DNA from: Pseudohongiella spirulinae
GTDB lineage: Bacteria > Pseudomonadota > Gammaproteobacteria > Pseudomonadales > Pseudohongiellaceae
Assembly (NCBI RefSeq): GCF_001444425.1
Contig: NZ_CP013189.1
Location: 2,046,001 to 2,110,000, forward strand
DNA length: 64,000 nucleotides
Direction: 5' to 3'
The translations under genes were made by a program, and so were the position numbers. Each line of letters begins with the position of its first letter. Positions within the stretch are counted from its first letter, which is position 1. Below, piece by piece: positions 58,488 through 64,000 of the stretch. A model generated the notes under the pieces. The model did not search any database, had not been told where the DNA came from, and worked only from the letters and a program-made list of their open reading frames with translations.

Positions 58488-58506
58488 AATACTTGCACAG
58501 ATGAAA

Positions 58507-58551
58507 TGGTGGGGCGTGATGGATTCGAACCATCGACCAATTGGTTAAAAG
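58507..58551 (-). other. tRNA-Lys 3' half: prophage attachment site
   Basis: Read on the minus strand, this is the tRNA-Lys 3' half from the TTT anticodon loop through the anticodon-stem 3' side, T-arm (GATGG-TTCGAAT-CCATC) and acceptor ACGCCCC plus ACCA. Beyond about 58551 the sequence stops matching a tRNA: the expected stem partner is mispaired and no D-arm follows. This is the usual footprint of a tyrosine-integrase att core. The restored full tRNA should lie at the far prophage end, outside the window. Confidence 0.82.
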
Positions 58552-58644
58552 GCAACTGCATTTTGCTCACTTATCAAATAGTTGGGTGCCATCTTTTTCC
58601 GGCAAAGTGCCGAAAACACCCCTGTAATATCAAGATAATAGCAT

Positions 58645-59715
58645 TTATTTTTCCGGAGATCGACCGCGCTCAGCTGGCACAAAAACCACCCCACCCAGCA
58701 CACTCTCACGCAGCCCCAGCGTATCCGCATGACTGGCATGCGCCACCCAGCTCTGCACGGTCTGACGCACCAGCTCCAGGCTAACACTGCCCTCGGCATA
58801 CTGCCGCTGCAGGCGCTTCAAACTACGCTTAATCCGCCGAATCGAATCTTTACGCAGCCGCCGGTGTGTCGGCCAAATGTGATACCCCAGAAAGTTCAGC
58901 CCCCGCCCATGCCGGGTGGCCACCGGGAACACCTGTGTTTTGTCATTGGTGGTCAACCTTAGGCTGTCCCACAGAAACTGCTCCAGTACGCGCCTGGCAT
59001 CGTGCAGCCAGGCTTTGTCGTGGTGGACGATGACAAAATCGTCCATGTAGCGCACATAGTGCCGAGCCTTGACCTGGTGTTTTGCGTACAGGTCCAGCTC
59101 ATGCAGGTACACATTGGCCCAGAGCTGGCTGGTCAGGTTGCCGATGGGCAGGCCTTTGGGTGCCAGTGTTGCCGGGTGAATGCCGCTGTCGATGATGCCT
59201 GCGCACAGCTCATAGGTGCGGTTACAGCGGATCTTGCGTCGTAAAATGGCTTTCAGCACGCCGTGATCCACGCTGGCAAAATATTTGCTGACATCGGCCT
59301 TGAGCACATACAGATGACCATGCTCGCGCTGCACCTTTCTGAGCATGCGCTGGACGGCATCTGCGCCTCTGTGCATACCTCTGCCGGTTCGGCAGGCATA
59401 GCTGTGGTGGATAAAGCACGGATCCCATAGCGGCTCAAGCTGGCTGACCAGGCTGTGCTGCACCACGCGGTCGCGGTATGGGACCGAGGCAATCTCGCGC
59501 TTTTTCGGTTCGAACACATGAAACCGGTGATATTTGCCGGTTTTGTATTCACCCCAGATCAGCTCGTTCTGGAGCTGAATCAGGTTGCCCTCCAGATCCT
59601 GCTCAAAGTGCTGCACGGCCGGGCGGCCTCGCTTGCCCAGCCTGGCCTTCAGGTGCCCGCGATACAGGCTCTCAAAATCATAAACGGCCGGGAACATTCC
59701 GTTGTGGCTTTTCAT
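58645..59715 (-). CDS. DGR reverse transcriptase
   Basis: This retron/DGR-class reverse transcriptase of 356 residues copies the template-repeat RNA into cDNA with errors at adenines. Motifs in order: KADVSKYFASVDH (first catalytic Asp near 141), GLPIGNLTSQLWANVYLHEL near 188-207 and the catalytic YMDD at 223-226. The GLPIGNLTSQ motif is characteristic of DGR enzymes, where group II intron enzymes have a QG at this position. There is no maturase or endonuclease domain. The ATG at 59715, with GGAG upstream, is preferred over the GTG at 59721. It is the last gene of the cassette. Confidence 0.96.
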   Translation of the reverse strand: MKSHNGMFPAVYDFESLYRGHLKARLGKRGRPAVQHFEQDLEGNLIQLQNELIWGEYKTGKYHRFHVFEPKKREIASVPYRDRVVQHSLVSQLEPLWDPCFIHHSYACRTGRGMHRGADAVQRMLRKVQREHGHLYVLKADVSKYFASVDHGVLKAILRRKIRCNRTYELCAGIIDSGIHPATLAPKGLPIGNLTSQLWANVYLHELDLYAKHQVKARHYVRYMDDFVIVHHDKAWLHDARRVLEQFLWDSLRLTTNDKTQVFPVATRHGRGLNFLGYHIWPTHRRLRKDSIRRIKRSLKRLQRQYAEGSVSLELVRQTVQSWVAHASHADTLGLRESVLGGVVFVPAERGRSPEK

Positions 59716-59885
59716 AAACACTCCGTGTCTAAAAAGGCGGCAGGGCTGAACGGTGGGTGCAACATGGCACTTACTGGAACAGCCTGCCTGTTAAGTTTTT
59801 CGGCATCTGCCGGGGAGCATGCGTCCTTTTGAGAGAGGTACTGACTTAAAGCCACGTGGGCTTTGAGTTTCTGACACATCTCAAG
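59716..59885 (-). ncRNA. DGR RNA spacer between template repeat and reverse transcriptase
   Basis: About 170 bases separate the template repeat from the reverse transcriptase start. In the Bordetella phage DGR the equivalent spacer is part of the structured RNA needed for priming of cDNA synthesis. Here the same position and similar length suggest the same role. The boundaries are inferred, not seen. Confidence 0.5.
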
Positions 59886-59999
59886 AGCGGGCCGCGCGCC
59901 GATATTCGTGTTCGAATTCGACCGCTCATTGTTGAGATTGAGCGCGAACACGCCGGCGATCGAACCGTTGTTCCAGTTGCCACCGCGACGCGAGACGCG
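59886..59999 (-). repeat. DGR template repeat (TR)
   Basis: This 114-bp sequence aligns without gaps, at an offset of 575, to the end of the variable protein gene (60461-60574). Read on the minus strand it is rich in AAC/AAT codons at the diversified sites, translating as GGNWNNGS, ALNLNNERSNSNTNIG and GARPA. It starts one base after the avd stop. Its 3' end is the GC-only block GGCGCGCGGCCCGCT, which corresponds to the initiation-of-mutagenic-homing region. Confidence 0.96.
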
Positions 60000-60000
60000 T

Positions 60001-60387
60001 TTAACGCACACCCCTGCTGGCCTGGCTCTGTGATTTGATCCAGCCGCCAATCATGCGGCCGATCTCATCGTTGAGCTTGGACCAATGCTCGAATTTCTTA
60101 AACTGCAGAAATTGGTACTGCATGGCCCTGCGCAAAAAGCTGCGCAGGACGTTTAGCTCGACATCAAGCTGCAACAAAGCAGCCCTTTTGTCCCGAGCCA
60201 GGTTACACTTGATGACGCAGCGCAGGATCGACCACATACACTGGCGGATCTCCGCACTGAGCACGTGGCGCTCAGACTTTGGAAATTGACGCAGTGCGAT
60301 ATACCCGTAGTCGATCATATCCTCAACTTTCTGACGGATCAGAAGGTCAGTGATTTTTTCTGGTTTGCGTTGCAGTGATCTGCTCAT
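60001..60387 (-). CDS. avd: DGR accessory variability determinant (Avd)
   Basis: Avd is a small, basic helical-bundle protein that forms a pentamer and binds the reverse transcriptase and template RNA. The 128 residues are helical and Arg/Lys-rich, starting MSRSLQRKPEKITDLLIRQK and containing FPKSERHVLSAEIRQCMWS and EHWSKLNDEIGRMIGGWIKS, typical of the bAvd/four-helix family. It is placed between the variable protein gene and the template repeat, as in the Bordetella phage BPP-1 order. AAGGA precedes the ATG. Confidence 0.92.
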   Translation of the reverse strand: MSRSLQRKPEKITDLLIRQKVEDMIDYGYIALRQFPKSERHVLSAEIRQCMWSILRCVIKCNLARDKRAALLQLDVELNVLRSFLRRAMQYQFLQFKKFEHWSKLNDEIGRMIGGWIKSQSQASRGVR

Positions 60388-60409
60388 AACATCCTTGTCA
60401 GCATGGTAG

Positions 60410-60425
60410 CGGCGCTTTAGCGCCG
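60410..60425. promoter_or_regulatory. short hairpin downstream of the variable repeat
   Basis: CGGCGC and GCGCCG form a 6-bp stem with a 4-base loop (TAAA on the minus strand), about 35 bases past the variable repeat. Several DGRs need a hairpin or cruciform at this place for target recognition. The stem here is shorter than in the Bordetella phage, so the match is tentative. Confidence 0.4.
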
Positions 60426-60448
60426 ATCAGATTACAGTGATTCAGGCT

Positions 60449-61516
60449 TCAGATTACAAAAGCGGGCCGCGCGCCGACAGTCGTGTGCGACGGCGACCGC
60501 TCAGCGCTGAGAGTGAGCGCGAACACGCCGGCGATCGAACCGCTGCTCCAGTAGCCACCGCGAAGCGAGACGCGCTCGCCAGAGGTGTTCAGATAGAATC
60601 CATCTCCGCCCAGGCCGCTCCCGGCGATGGGGAACAGCGCCAGTGCCTTGAGCCGGTTTAAAGCAGCCGTGCTGACAGGGTTTGCGCCAGTGCTATTTTG
60701 CATACCCTCAAACGTATTTACTGTTAGTCTGTACAGGGTATAGTCAGCAGTTCCGCTGTTTGCGCTGGCATATTTAACGGAATTGGCGTGCCCGGGTGAC
60801 ACCAGATCACCAGTGGCTCCATCAATCGCCATCCAGCTCGCAGAGGCTGCGCCCAGATCGGTCGCGGTCAGAGCAGCATCGTTGTTTTCGATAATTTGAA
60901 TCTCGCCAGCCACGACTCGCACCCCTGGTGTCCACTCCCAGACATTGCCGTTTAGGTCGCTGATACCAAAAGGCGTGTTGTCATGTCGCCAGCTGGTCGG
61001 GCCGGAGCCAGTCAGGGTGCGGGCGGTACCGCTTGCGGTGCCGGGTGTCACGCCATCCTGGCGTCGCCCAGCCTCGACAGTCGTCGCGTGATCTCGCCCA
61101 TAATCATTGTTACCTCGTGGCATCAATCCGTTTTTGTGACACCACAGCGCGAGTGCCGCAAACTCAACCGAGGTCGTCAGGTGCCACCCAGCGCCATTGT
61201 TGCGCGCCAGGCTGATGGCGGCATCGTTAGTGATCTCTGTCGTCGGATCAACACCAGGCACTGAGATCAGCTCGCTGTTGCGGCTGCTGCCCAGGTACTG
61301 GCCGATCATCAGCTCGTCTTTGTTGACACCGCCTACGATAAAAGCGGGGTGGCGGCTGATGCCCAGGTCGGAGTTGACGGCCGCCATATCGGAGTGACGC
61401 AGCACATACATGAAGCAGGGCTGTCCGGCAGCCGTGTACAGGACTGTGTTGCGGCCGTTGCTGGACGCCTCGACTTGCCTGCGCAGTTGGTCTGGCACGT
61501 TGATAGTAATTGGCAT
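60449..61516 (-). CDS. DGR-diversified phage variable protein (FGE/C-type-lectin-like fold)
   Basis: This 355-residue protein is the DGR target. Its C-terminal 200 residues have the formylglycine-generating-enzyme/sulfatase-modifying type of C-type lectin fold: SDLNGNVWEW at 187-196 and RGGYWSSGS near 319. The last 40 residues are the variable region with diversified sites Y322, S324, S325, T335, S337, A338, P342, H344, T346 and V347. The N-terminal part (1-110) is unassigned and probably attaches it to the virion. It starts 3 bp after a phage gene, so it is likely a receptor-binding tail protein. Confidence 0.93.
   Translation of the reverse strand: MPITINVPDQLRRQVEASSNGRNTVLYTAAGQPCFMYVLRHSDMAAVNSDLGISRHPAFIVGGVNKDELMIGQYLGSSRNSELISVPGVDPTTEITNDAAISLARNNGAGWHLTTSVEFAALALWCHKNGLMPRGNNDYGRDHATTVEAGRRQDGVTPGTASGTARTLTGSGPTSWRHDNTPFGISDLNGNVWEWTPGVRVVAGEIQIIENNDAALTATDLGAASASWMAIDGATGDLVSPGHANSVKYASANSGTADYTLYRLTVNTFEGMQNSTGANPVSTAALNRLKALALFPIAGSGLGGDGFYLNTSGERVSLRGGYWSSGSIAGVFALTLSAERSPSHTTVGARPAFVI
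60461..60574 (-). repeat. DGR variable repeat (VR)
   Basis: This is the 3' end of the variable protein gene, aligned base for base to the template repeat at 59886-59999. Of 14 differences, 12 are at template adenines (T on the plus strand). The other two are at 60491 (template T to G on the coding strand) and 60564 (G to T). The 15-base GC block at the end (60461-60475) is identical to the template and contains no adenine. Confidence 0.96.
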
Positions 61517-61519
61517 GGC

Positions 61520-61876
61520 TTACTCTCCTTGCGGCTCTTCTATCGGCTCTTCAGCCGGTGGTGTATTGGCGACATCGCGCGCGTTGGCAGCTGTCAGATA
61601 TGCTGAGTAGACCAGCGCATAAATCTCACCCTGCGTAACTGTCTGGCCAGTTGGCTGGCCTGTTGCCGGGTCATACAGATCAATGACTGCTGACGGGTCA
61701 AATGGCACAGTCAGATAACCCTGTGCGCTCTTGAGCGTCTGACCCGCACTGGTGGTCAGTACGGTCTCTTCGTCATAGCGTATCTCGGGCTGTGCAGCCA
61801 GCGGGTTGCTGATAACGATACGCTTGCATCGTGTCCACTCCGTGCCGGTGACGGATTGCTCGTTGTAGTTGCTCAT
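61520..61876 (-). CDS. phage protein upstream of the variable protein
   Basis: This acidic 118-residue protein (MSNYNEQSVTGTEWTRCKRI start, TPPAEEPIEEPQGE end) has no family I recognise. Its place directly before the variable protein, with a 3-bp gap, is that of a small tail-fibre or chaperone-type gene. The C-terminal EEP-rich tail is probably flexible. It is likely cotranscribed with its neighbours. Confidence 0.75.
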   Translation of the reverse strand: MSNYNEQSVTGTEWTRCKRIVISNPLAAQPEIRYDEETVLTTSAGQTLKSAQGYLTVPFDPSAVIDLYDPATGQPTGQTVTQGEIYALVYSAYLTAANARDVANTPPAEEPIEEPQGE

Positions 61877-61906
61877 GGTTGCTCCTGATCAGGGGTGTCA
61901 GTTGAA

Positions 61907-62659
61907 TTACGGTACGATGCCGCCGGAGTCGATGCGCAGCACCTCTGTGCCGTTGACGGCAAATGCAATCTCATCGGCAGCCGGGAAAAACATGCCAGTG
62001 CCGGGGTTGGTGCGATGGGCAATTGAGCAGCGGGCTGCAGATCCGGCGCTGGCCTTGTACTCGCCTATGCCAGCCAGTGTCTTGGCTGCCTGACCCGCCA
62101 AATCGGATATCTGTAGCAGCATCTGCACCAGAGCATCTGTGTCGCGGTTTGAGGGCTGGTCCTTGCGAATCTTGTCGGCAACGTCCAGCACGTAGTTGAT
62201 GTGCTCGATGAACTGGACGGAGTACTCTGCGGCCACCCAGCCCTTGTCCAGGGTGCCGGTAGATCCGGCGATGGGTACGTTGCCGGGCGTCGGGGTGACT
62301 GAGTAGTCGCCACCATAGACAATGGCAATGGCTTCGTCGCGGGCGTCTCGGGTTTCGTTTCGGTAGGTCAGTGCATCGCCGGCGTTGGTGCCCGAGGCGA
62401 TGACGGCCGCTTGGGCGGTGGCGGCATAGGCTGCTGACTGGTCGCGGAAGACTTCCACCTGCCCGATGGCTACGTTTAGCTCGCTGGTGATCTGGTTGCT
62501 CAGATCGGTGGTGGCCTGGACGATATCGGCCAGACCCTCATCAATGTCATCCAGGCCCTGGTTAACCCCAGCCTGCACACCATCAATCATGGCATTGTGC
62601 TTGACCGGATAATCGTGGTCTTTAATAGTGATCTTGTATGGCTGCAGATCAATGGCCAT
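61907..62659 (-). CDS. phage tail-fibre-like structural protein
   Basis: The 250-residue protein has a long helical middle, with many Ala, Gln and Asp residues (about 20-90), and a glycine-rich C-terminal part ending TEVLRIDSGGIVP. This is a common ending of trimeric tail-fibre domains (pattern FAVNGTEVLRID). The ATG at 62659 has AGGGAG 8 bases upstream and is preferred to the TTG at 62665. The function is inferred from composition and position. Confidence 0.72.
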   Translation of the reverse strand: MAIDLQPYKITIKDHDYPVKHNAMIDGVQAGVNQGLDDIDEGLADIVQATTDLSNQITSELNVAIGQVEVFRDQSAAYAATAQAAVIASGTNAGDALTYRNETRDARDEAIAIVYGGDYSVTPTPGNVPIAGSTGTLDKGWVAAEYSVQFIEHINYVLDVADKIRKDQPSNRDTDALVQMLLQISDLAGQAAKTLAGIGEYKASAGSAARCSIAHRTNPGTGMFFPAADEIAFAVNGTEVLRIDSGGIVP

Positions 62660-62661
62660 GC

Positions 62662-63528
62662 TCAATTCTCCCTGAGTGTCAGCGCGCTCGCGCTGCCGTT
62701 AAACATTTGTTGCTCATACTGGTAGTCGTTTGTGCGCCGGTAAATCGATGCGCCCATGTGCCAGGACCAGCCAACATCGTTGGGGTTGGGGATTACGTAC
62801 AAATCGCCGGTTTTCCCGGCGGCCCCGAGGATTGCGAGGAAGCGGTTGCGGTCCACGTCTTCCATCAGGCTGAAATCCAGATCAATGCGCCGGCGTACGG
62901 GCCGGGCGCTGCTCCAGTAACCACCGGCAACAGTGCGCGCCTGTTCGGTCAGATCGTCCGTGCCGAACACAGCACCCCAGTCATAGTTGTATTGCGGGGC
63001 CCAGGCAAAAAACAGCGCCAGTTTGTCGATCTCTACAATGTTGTCTGGCTGGGTGCCTGGCGTGATATCTAGCTGCATGGACTTGCCTGTCACATCCTCA
63101 AACACCAGCGTGTAGACGGCATCGAGCACGCTGTCCGCGTCACAGTAACCGCCCCAGGGGTCGAAGCCTGCCAGCATTTCGCCCCAGGGCCGCACCGTGA
63201 ATATGGTGTCTGCACCGGTCACGTCATCTGAGTCATACAGGACTGAGCCTGTCTGGTTCTCGCCATCCCAGATGCGCAGGCGCAGGGTGGTCTCCTCCAC
63301 CAGGTTGTGCCCCTTTAGCATCAGGCCTGACATGGCGCGGGCGGTGGCAGAGGACGCTTTGAGCGTAATCACGGACTCGCCAGTTATATCCCAGCGCGTG
63401 GGCAGGCCTTTTGTCTGGCTGAGCACATTGGCAATCGGATGCAGCACGTCAGTGCCCTGCATCGTGATCAGCGACATGTCCTCAAGCAGATTTTTCCACC
63501 CGATGAGTAATTTGCTTTTAAGCGCCAT
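62662..63528 (-). CDS. phage virion-associated protein (288 aa)
   Basis: I do not recognise a named family. The protein is beta-rich, starts MALKSKLLIGWKNLLEDMS, and has WDITGESVITLKASSATARA and a segment IEIDKLALFFAWAP-like (VEIDKLALFFAWAP), as seen in tail-tip or minor tail proteins. Residues coded by 62907-62926 read GGYWSS and match the variable repeat of the DGR target in 19 of 20 bases. It is followed 2 bp later by the tail-fibre-like gene. Confidence 0.72.
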   Translation of the reverse strand: MALKSKLLIGWKNLLEDMSLITMQGTDVLHPIANVLSQTKGLPTRWDITGESVITLKASSATARAMSGLMLKGHNLVEETTLRLRIWDGENQTGSVLYDSDDVTGADTIFTVRPWGEMLAGFDPWGGYCDADSVLDAVYTLVFEDVTGKSMQLDITPGTQPDNIVEIDKLALFFAWAPQYNYDWGAVFGTDDLTEQARTVAGGYWSSARPVRRRIDLDFSLMEDVDRNRFLAILGAAGKTGDLYVIPNPNDVGWSWHMGASIYRRTNDYQYEQQMFNGSASALTLREN

Positions 63529-63531
63529 GTG

Positions 63532-64000
63532 TTACACCCATATCTCAAACTGACATCGCTGTCGGGTCAGGTTTTTTTTGTTGCTGATCACAATCACCGA
63601 CGTGCCGGGGGAGCTGCCCACTGGGCCGAACCCATAATCGGCAGAGCGCAGCACGATTTTGTCGCCGATCTCATCGGCCAGAAAGCTGGCATCGCCCTCC
63701 CCGGCATAAACGCGGTGCTCGGTCTCGCGCAGATCCCAGCGCCTGGTAAGCTCTGCCGCTGCATCGGTCTGCTCATACAGCAGCGTCTCGCGCTTTTGGT
63801 TGCGCACAAACGGGTAGCCGGTGAGCGTGCGGGTTTCTTTCTCATAGCTGTAATCACGCGAGTACAGCAGCGCGTTGGCGGCGCTAACCGACCCTGCCAG
63901 CGTGTCGGTGCCCTGCACTGCCCAGTTTTTGCGGTATCCGAGCTCCAACTGTTTGTACGGTGGCTCGATGGACTGCAGGGTGAGACGGCTGAGCAGATTG
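63532..64000 (-). CDS. phage structural protein, 3' part (gene continues past window)
   Basis: The frame is open from the right edge down to the stop at 63532, giving at least 156 residues (visible start LLSRLTLQSIEPPYKQLELG). The shorter TTG-started frame at 63948 is not needed. It appears beta-rich, with no recognised domain. It ends 4 bp before the next gene and belongs to the same phage operon. Confidence 0.7.
   Translation of the reverse strand, partial: NLLSRLTLQSIEPPYKQLELGYRKNWAVQGTDTLAGSVSAANALLYSRDYSYEKETRTLTGYPFVRNQKRETLLYEQTDAAAELTRRWDLRETEHRVYAGEGDASFLADEIGDKIVLRSADYGFGPVGSSPGTSVIVISNKKNLTRQRCQFEIWV

Follow-up and report, generated by a model that had tools for sequence, protein, structure and literature searches.

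A 64,000-nucleotide stretch of the Pseudohongiella spirulinae genome (hereafter the window; positions 2046001-2110000 of a genome assembled as a single contig of 3,345,119 bp, NZ_CP013189.1) carries a complete diversity-generating retroelement (DGR). We are highly confident that this is an intact element of the same kind as the BPP-1 and TaqVP DGRs, lodged in a prophage integrated in a tRNA-Lys gene, and that it would diversify the C-terminus of its target protein; its activity we infer. The element is recognized by its anatomy, the adenine bias of its repeats, the families of its proteins, its prophage setting and its conserved RNA and DNA structures, and it is probably functional. It is ordinary in kind, one more phage DGR, and the part worth a specialist's time is the comparative pattern found in its spacer. 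A well-preserved phage DGR in a complete gammaproteobacterial genome, with a traceable attachment site and a copy in a sister species, offers a clean place for activity testing.

The cassette and its prophage

A reading of the sequence alone had proposed a cassette made up of a target gene with a variable repeat (VR), avd, a template repeat (TR) and a reverse transcriptase (RT) gene. All four parts were recovered over the proposed span, on the minus strand and in the order known from BPP-1 (AY029185). The features are as follows (window coordinates; IMH, initiation of mutagenic homing, and IMH* designate the VR and TR ends, respectively).

58502..58551, no strand: attachment-site copy of the tRNA-Lys 3' end, 50 bp, at the prophage end adjoining nadA
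58645-61516, minus: complete DGR cassette in BPP-1 order (target with VR, avd, TR, RT)
58645..59721, minus: DGR reverse transcriptase, 358 aa, with GLPIGNLTSQ and YMDD
59722..59885, minus: TR-RT spacer, 164 nt, a conserved structured RNA by covariation
59801-59812, minus: spacer stem CGGC/GCCG, with a further stem 3'
59826..59834, minus: spacer segment TCTCAAAAG, able to pair with the TR 3' end, its CAAAAG being able to pair with VR
59844-59868, minus: spacer hairpin (end counted by hand)
59879..59887, minus: IMH*-like TR end CTCTTGAGA
59886..59999, minus: TR core, 114 nt, 22 adenines
60001..60387, minus: avd, 128 aa (Pfam, PHROG)
60410..60425, minus: GC-rich hairpin 3' of VR, 6-bp stem, loop TAAA
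60449..61516, minus: target gene, 355 aa, variable protein of C-type-lectin/FGE-sulfatase fold, with VR as its C-terminal end
60457..60462, minus: IMH-like VR end CTTTTG
60461..60574, minus: VR core, 114 nt

The TR and VR cores align over 114 nt without a gap and differ at 12 of the 22 TR adenines versus 2 of the 92 other positions (Fisher p = 8.8e-9), which bears out the TR/VR alignment of the sequence-only reading and shows the differences to be adenine-specific. When VR was taken as the template instead, none of its 10 adenines was changed. The two non-adenine changes are a G to T at repeat position 11 and a T to G at position 84. Thirteen codons of the core bear adenines, nine of them AAY, giving up to ~1e13 protein variants (15^9 x 4^4), and no adenine substitution in the core can create a stop codon. 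The IMH/IMH* difference is also present: it consists of a C to T at repeat position 115 plus differences further on, and is kept in the sister locus L085, which belongs to the same-genus metagenome-assembled genome (MAG) UBA6173. A whole-genome search with TR returned only TR, VR and eight chance-looking matches of 14 to 19 nt, with no further VR elsewhere in the genome. By the mechanism established for BPP-1, an RNA of TR and spacer would be reverse-transcribed by RT and Avd to complementary DNA (cDNA) with random bases opposite the template adenines; this cDNA would replace VR, thereby rewriting up to 13 C-terminal codons of a C-type-lectin-fold protein encoded beside tail genes.

The RT contains both predicted motifs and carries the DGR-clade signature [I/V/L]GxxxSQ in place of QGxxxSP. 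It matches PHROG 1423 (E = 5.4e-136), and its best match in the PDB is 8ub7, an entry that also contains Avd (E = 1.9e-56). A quick tree built from 157 RTs places those of the window and of BPP-1 among 146 rows separated from 11 other RTs by a branch with a support of 99 (SH-aLRT, the Shimodaira-Hasegawa-like approximate likelihood-ratio test); the 11 were picked by us for a QGxxxSP-type motif or low identity, without a database label, and four of them form very long branches. Within the tree, the window RT and that of L085 form a pair (support 100), which is nested in a group of 8 with a support of 98. The RT is thus placed by its sequence with DGR-type RTs; clustering with other RT classes, raised in the sequence-only reading as a finding that would tell against it, was not seen in this tree. 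The idea that the enzyme is a retron or group II intron RT, and the TR/VR likeness a product of chance, has next to no credibility left. The general RVT_1 model of Pfam does match the protein, and the next PDB matches, weaker ones, are to other RT classes (GsI-IIC RT 6ar1, E = 1.1e-22; 'retron-type' 5hhj, E = 1.4e-13), but the RT tree and the PHROG and PDB rankings rule out a non-DGR enzyme, and together with the adjoining Avd and the adenine bias of a 114-nt repeat (p 9e-9) they already refute this idea.

The product of 60001-60387 is indeed an Avd protein, as judged from the profile searches suggested for it: it matches Pfam bAvd (E = 2.2e-31) and the PHROG 'Avd protein of DGR' (phrog_3206, E = 1.4e-39). 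A single Avd sequence found no match as a PDB query; a profile was needed, and the one built from 26 sequences matched BPP-1 Avd (4dwl, E = 3.2e-7; 8ub7_B, E = 3.6e-6). The target, of C-type-lectin type with VR at its C-terminal end, gives an FGE-sulfatase-like match with Pfam and PHROGs and is matched by phmmer to TaqVP, a Thermus DGR variable protein (5vf4, E = 3.1e-78). Its AlphaFold model (predicted local distance difference test score, pLDDT, 84.8) resembles 5vf4 with a template-modelling (TM) score of 0.85-0.86 (E = 1.4e-38; 40-41% identity in the structural alignment), and weaker matches are found to Treponema denticola variable protein 1 and Mtd (E = 0.002-0.03). Its gene position and fold suggest that it is most likely a host-binding protein of the phage, diversified by the DGR.

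The prophage setting proposed from the sequence was also recovered. The prophage, which occupies ~41.6 kb in the tRNA-Lys gene, has the cassette at one of its ends: the tRNA-Lys 3' end recurs at 58502-58551 as a 50-bp direct repeat identical to genome positions 2146100-2146149, which the integrase gene adjoins, and genes for the integrase, small terminase, portal, head protease and tape measure protein lie between the two copies. The features of a temperate tailed phage are present (integrase, attachment sites, head, portal, terminase and tail genes), and the DGR is the final element before the attachment site, the RT end being 93 bp away. An Rfam scan gave a sub-threshold tRNA match (26.5 bits) at 58518-58567, which is the attachment-site copy of tRNA-Lys. 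When the nadA loci of 12 same-genus relatives were scanned (a thirteenth, partial locus, L217, was left out), a tRNA-Lys gene was found inside the 1.5-kb nadA flank in 6 and not found in the other 6, nor was one found in the window's own nadA locus. The six loci with tRNA-Lys were taken as empty integration sites.

The cassette shares with that of BPP-1 (mtd-avd-TR-brt) the gene order on one strand, a TR directly behind avd, a hairpin after VR, a tRNA attachment site beyond the RT side and a TR-RT spacer (144 nt in BPP-1 versus 164 nt in the window). It differs by its RT (36.7% identical), by its TaqVP-like, only weakly Mtd-like target, by its hairpin loop (TAAA versus GAAA) and by the 93 bp between RT and attachment site, where BPP-1 has four annotated genes. 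The likeness to Thermus aquaticus TaqVP, from a different host, concerns target fold and sequence. The UBA6173 locus (L085, in genome G006) has the same gene order, spacer RNA and IMH/IMH* difference, with identities of 76-77% for the RT, 86% for Avd and 69% for the target (gap included), but its VR is unassembled (31 N) and its hairpin loop is TTTA. Finally, the DGRs of Vibrio phage VP58.5 and Pseudoalteromonas phage ACA1 have the same target, Avd, RT order and match the R1 spacer model described below; they differ by an RT identity of 48-52% and by nearby baseplate genes, plus a tail sheath gene in VP58.5.

Conserved structures and the case for activity

An alignment of the TR-RT spacer over 23 loci contains 33 base pairs, 90% of whose cells pair, with 129 cells changed on both sides versus 40.4 in shuffled alignments; in slid controls, pairing fell to 39-46%. 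A covariance model of the first 92 spacer positions (R1) was then run on 98 loci outside the training set, which we picked ourselves and some of which are closely related to that set. At E up to 1 it matched 36 loci, once each, and 25 of these matches reached E 0.01 or less; all 36 lie just upstream of the RT gene, starting at most 11 nt from the TR end where that end is known. The other 62 of the 98 loci, including BPP-1, gave no match, the BPP-1 spacer being undetected at E up to 10. No Rfam family was found for the spacer at E up to 1, the scan returning one chance match besides the attachment-site tRNA. The covariation indicates that the TR-RT spacer is a structured RNA.

A GC-rich hairpin with a 6-bp stem and a TAAA loop stands behind VR (60425-60410). 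Across the same 23 loci as for the spacer, which belong to the RT clade, 92.6% of the stem cells pair and 43 are changed on both sides, versus a shuffled mean of 15.4 (the first alignment, A2, was poor for the window and its sister, and A3 was used instead). In the sister, the outer pair has gone from C-G to T-A and the stem still pairs. The loop is GATA or GGTA in 21 of the 23 aligned loci, TAAA in the window and TTTA in the sister; note that the counting script sought only four loops, and that an any-loop search agrees for most loci. The last two loops (window 60410-60425 and L085:1933-1956) are reverse complements of each other, as if the loop had been inverted, and both are off the GRNA consensus.

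Comparison of related loci supports activity in relatives of the window's element. Among 50 listed locus pairs with TRs at most 3% different (the pairs overlap in members, and one, L167/L178, consists of two VRs of one genome), 41 have different VRs, chiefly at template adenines, and 9 have identical VRs, several of these nine probably being copies of one genome. In the pair nearest to the window, L017 and L098 (Pigmentiphaga humi) of the same RT clade, the TR is shared (0/115 differences), and 13 of its 24 adenines and 1 of its 91 other bases have different counterparts in the two VRs. For the window itself, one contig scan and 55 related genomes besides its own contained no second strain for a VR comparison, the nearest being the 76-77% identical sister. 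In that MAG (L085:1854-1884, G006 contig 47), TR is assembled and a 31-N gap falls exactly within VR, where the window equivalent is 88 bases. The gap suits a mixed VR population, although it is weaker than proof.

Several observations weigh against an intact, active cassette. The sole other public copy found of the locus, IMG/VR 2687453255, matches the window at every one of the 5,356 bases compared; it is probably the same genome. The 31-N gap could alternatively come from the TR/VR repeat or from low coverage. Two core changes in VR lie outside adenines, and therefore either there has been drift in TR or the last rewriting of VR is not recent. Finally, PMC3240598 describes phage DGR hairpins as having 7-10 bp stems and GRNA loops, and reports activity near background when the GAAA loop was replaced by CTTT; judged by these BPP-1 experiments, the 6-bp stem and the TAAA loop of the window, outside GRNA, would be sub-optimal.

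These observations raise the alternative that the DGR was active in the past but has since gone dormant or decayed where its target lies, its genes being intact and its VR no longer rewritten. We consider it unlikely. It would account for the TAAA and TTTA loops at a place where 21 of 23 loci have GATA or GGTA, for the short stem, for the two non-adenine VR changes and for the identical second copy, but the RT, avd and target reading frames are all open at full length, the sister stem still pairs through the change of its outer pair, the spacer RNA and the IMH/IMH* difference are kept in the sister, and the sister assembly breaks at VR.

Complementarity between the spacer and the repeat ends

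In the window, the TR end CTCTTGAGA can form 8 of 9 pairs with the spacer segment TCTCAAAAG, the exception being C x A, and the VR end CTTTTG pairs at 6 of 6 positions with the CAAAAG of the same segment. Over the 23 loci, the TR-spacer pairing covaries, two of five pairs having changes on both sides; a first register (UCUU x AGGA), without covariation, was rejected. In the L045 group, TR has CAAACG opposite CCTTTG and VR has CAAAGG. An addition to the explanation given above would be that the spacer segment near the place of priming pairs with the VR IMH as well, the IMH* mismatch barring TR as a recipient. We regard such a guide role of the spacer as doubtful.

In the R1 register, 58 of 71 R1 matches were usable, 13 being excluded because they lay on the minus strand or off the TR end, had no TR/VR pair or were short. 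The VR hexamer made more Watson-Crick pairs with the spacer in 34 loci and the TR hexamer in 7, with 17 ties; the corresponding figures at RT identities below 70% (n = 32) are 17, 5 and 10. Seven loci were added by hand (five further candidates had no VR), and in the resulting set of 65 the TR hexamer was a perfect complement in 0 loci and the VR hexamer in 30. Column 3 is the most one-sided: of its 45 differences, 44 have pairing for VR only and 1 for TR only, with counts of 27 versus 1 at RT identities below 70% (n = 35) and 12 versus 1, or 12 of 13, below 50% (n = 16). Other counts go against a guide role. At non-adenine differences in columns 5-6, TR alone pairs in 25 and VR alone in 12 (n = 65); in other registers, TR reaches 6 to 8 nt of uninterrupted complementarity; and a one-base shift makes TR and VR equally perfect in L201. 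Furthermore, a free search for TR-spacer duplexes in 106 loci gave differing duplexes in many of them, and the hexamer counts therefore rest on the R1 register.

For a test independent of R1, we determined the longest complement of each repeat end with its own spacer in 29 DGRs with RT identities below 50%. The mean for the VR end was 5.86 nt versus 5.09 with exchanged spacers, a value that 0 of 2000 exchanges reached, whereas 142 of 2000 were as high for the TR end. Dinucleotide-shuffled spacers gave the VR end a mean of 5.27 (z 3.4, 0/500; without BPP-1, z 2.8, 2/500), with z 0.6 for the TR end and -0.5 to 0.7 for four control regions. In the 22 loci strictly outside R1, z was 3.5 for VR (2.6 without BPP-1), -0.2 for TR and up to 1.0 for the controls; in the 12 R1 loci, it was 1.4 for VR and 1.1 for TR (this is the strict split, a looser one having counted the clade members L086 and L098 as outside R1). 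Taken locus by locus, however, the 29 DGRs give a draw, the VR run being longer in 10, the TR run in 8 and the two equal in 11. The excess therefore rests on a few loci with long runs; the longest are the VR ends of L030, L042 and L145, perfect own-spacer complements of 10, 8 and 8 nt, and that of BPP-1 (9 nt).

Spacer positions 48-56 of BPP-1 form a 9-nt complement to its VR end TGACCACCT, and TR reaches at most 5 (for BPP-1, the final 24 or 30 bases of each annotated repeat were taken as its end). This match was equalled by 20 of 2000 shuffled spacers and by 2 of 130 spacers of other loci. Position A56 of the BPP-1 spacer is reportedly the priming adenine. Altogether, the VR end complements its own spacer above chance, BPP-1 included; in the window's wider clade the spacer fits VR better than TR, while unrelated DGRs give a draw.

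A guide role would thus draw on the R1-register counts (TR 0/65, VR 30/65), on column 3, on the long BPP-1 complement and on the VR excess in distant DGRs with flat TR and controls. It has to contend with the locus-by-locus draw, which led us to lower our estimate from unlikely to slightly more unlikely still, with the weak VR excess in the 12 R1 loci, with columns 5-6, the other registers and the L201 shift, and with L046 and L067, which do not fit. In addition, the T of VR is also part of a codon for a Phe that is invariant in 22 aligned targets of the window's clade, and the TR-spacer mismatch may have its own role in initiation by the RT; a structural study of the BPP-1 RT-Avd-RNA complex reportedly proposed that TR and spacer form a duplex at that step. 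The pattern may reflect a mismatch serving initiation together with a T held by the Phe codon. That view accounts for VR, but not for a spacer base that suits VR over TR. Shared descent competes as a further explanation of the spacer/VR pattern.

If a guide role held for DGRs generally, the spacer would bear an antisense VR IMH near the priming site, and the RNA-primed cDNA would be a chimeric strand complementary to VR over both primer and product, TR being spared by the mismatch; we rate this generalization as a long shot. Such a strand would resemble an RNA-primed Okazaki fragment. Our literature search, which lacked the key structural paper on the BPP-1 RT-Avd-RNA complex, found no printed statement of VR-spacer pairing during homing. 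Concerning priming, PMC12875486 states that an internal spacer adenine primes within IMH*, and it describes retrohoming of the mutagenised cDNA into VR as incompletely understood. A guide role, if true, would explain recipient recognition through base pairing, and the retrohoming question would become directly testable in part through spacers that, in unrelated DGRs, complement the VR end more than expected by chance.

Neighbouring genes and additional repeats

Upstream of the target, four prophage proteins are encoded on the minus strand:

61520..63999, minus: a 118-aa protein lacking any match, a 252-aa protein that weakly matches tail fibres, and two more phage proteins (phrog_8610 and phrog_8917)

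Some of the loci collected for comparison have more than one candidate target per DGR: in L041, L178 (G029), L141, L136 and L065, one TR region has two VR-like partners at separate places. In L017, a tandem second DGR cassette (L017:5001-7400) comprises a second avd, a TR-like stretch and a spacer of the CAAACG/CCTTTG type, and a second RT gene, with GALTSQ and YMDD motifs, lies directly 3' of the first. The same second TR-like stretch and spacer are found in L016.

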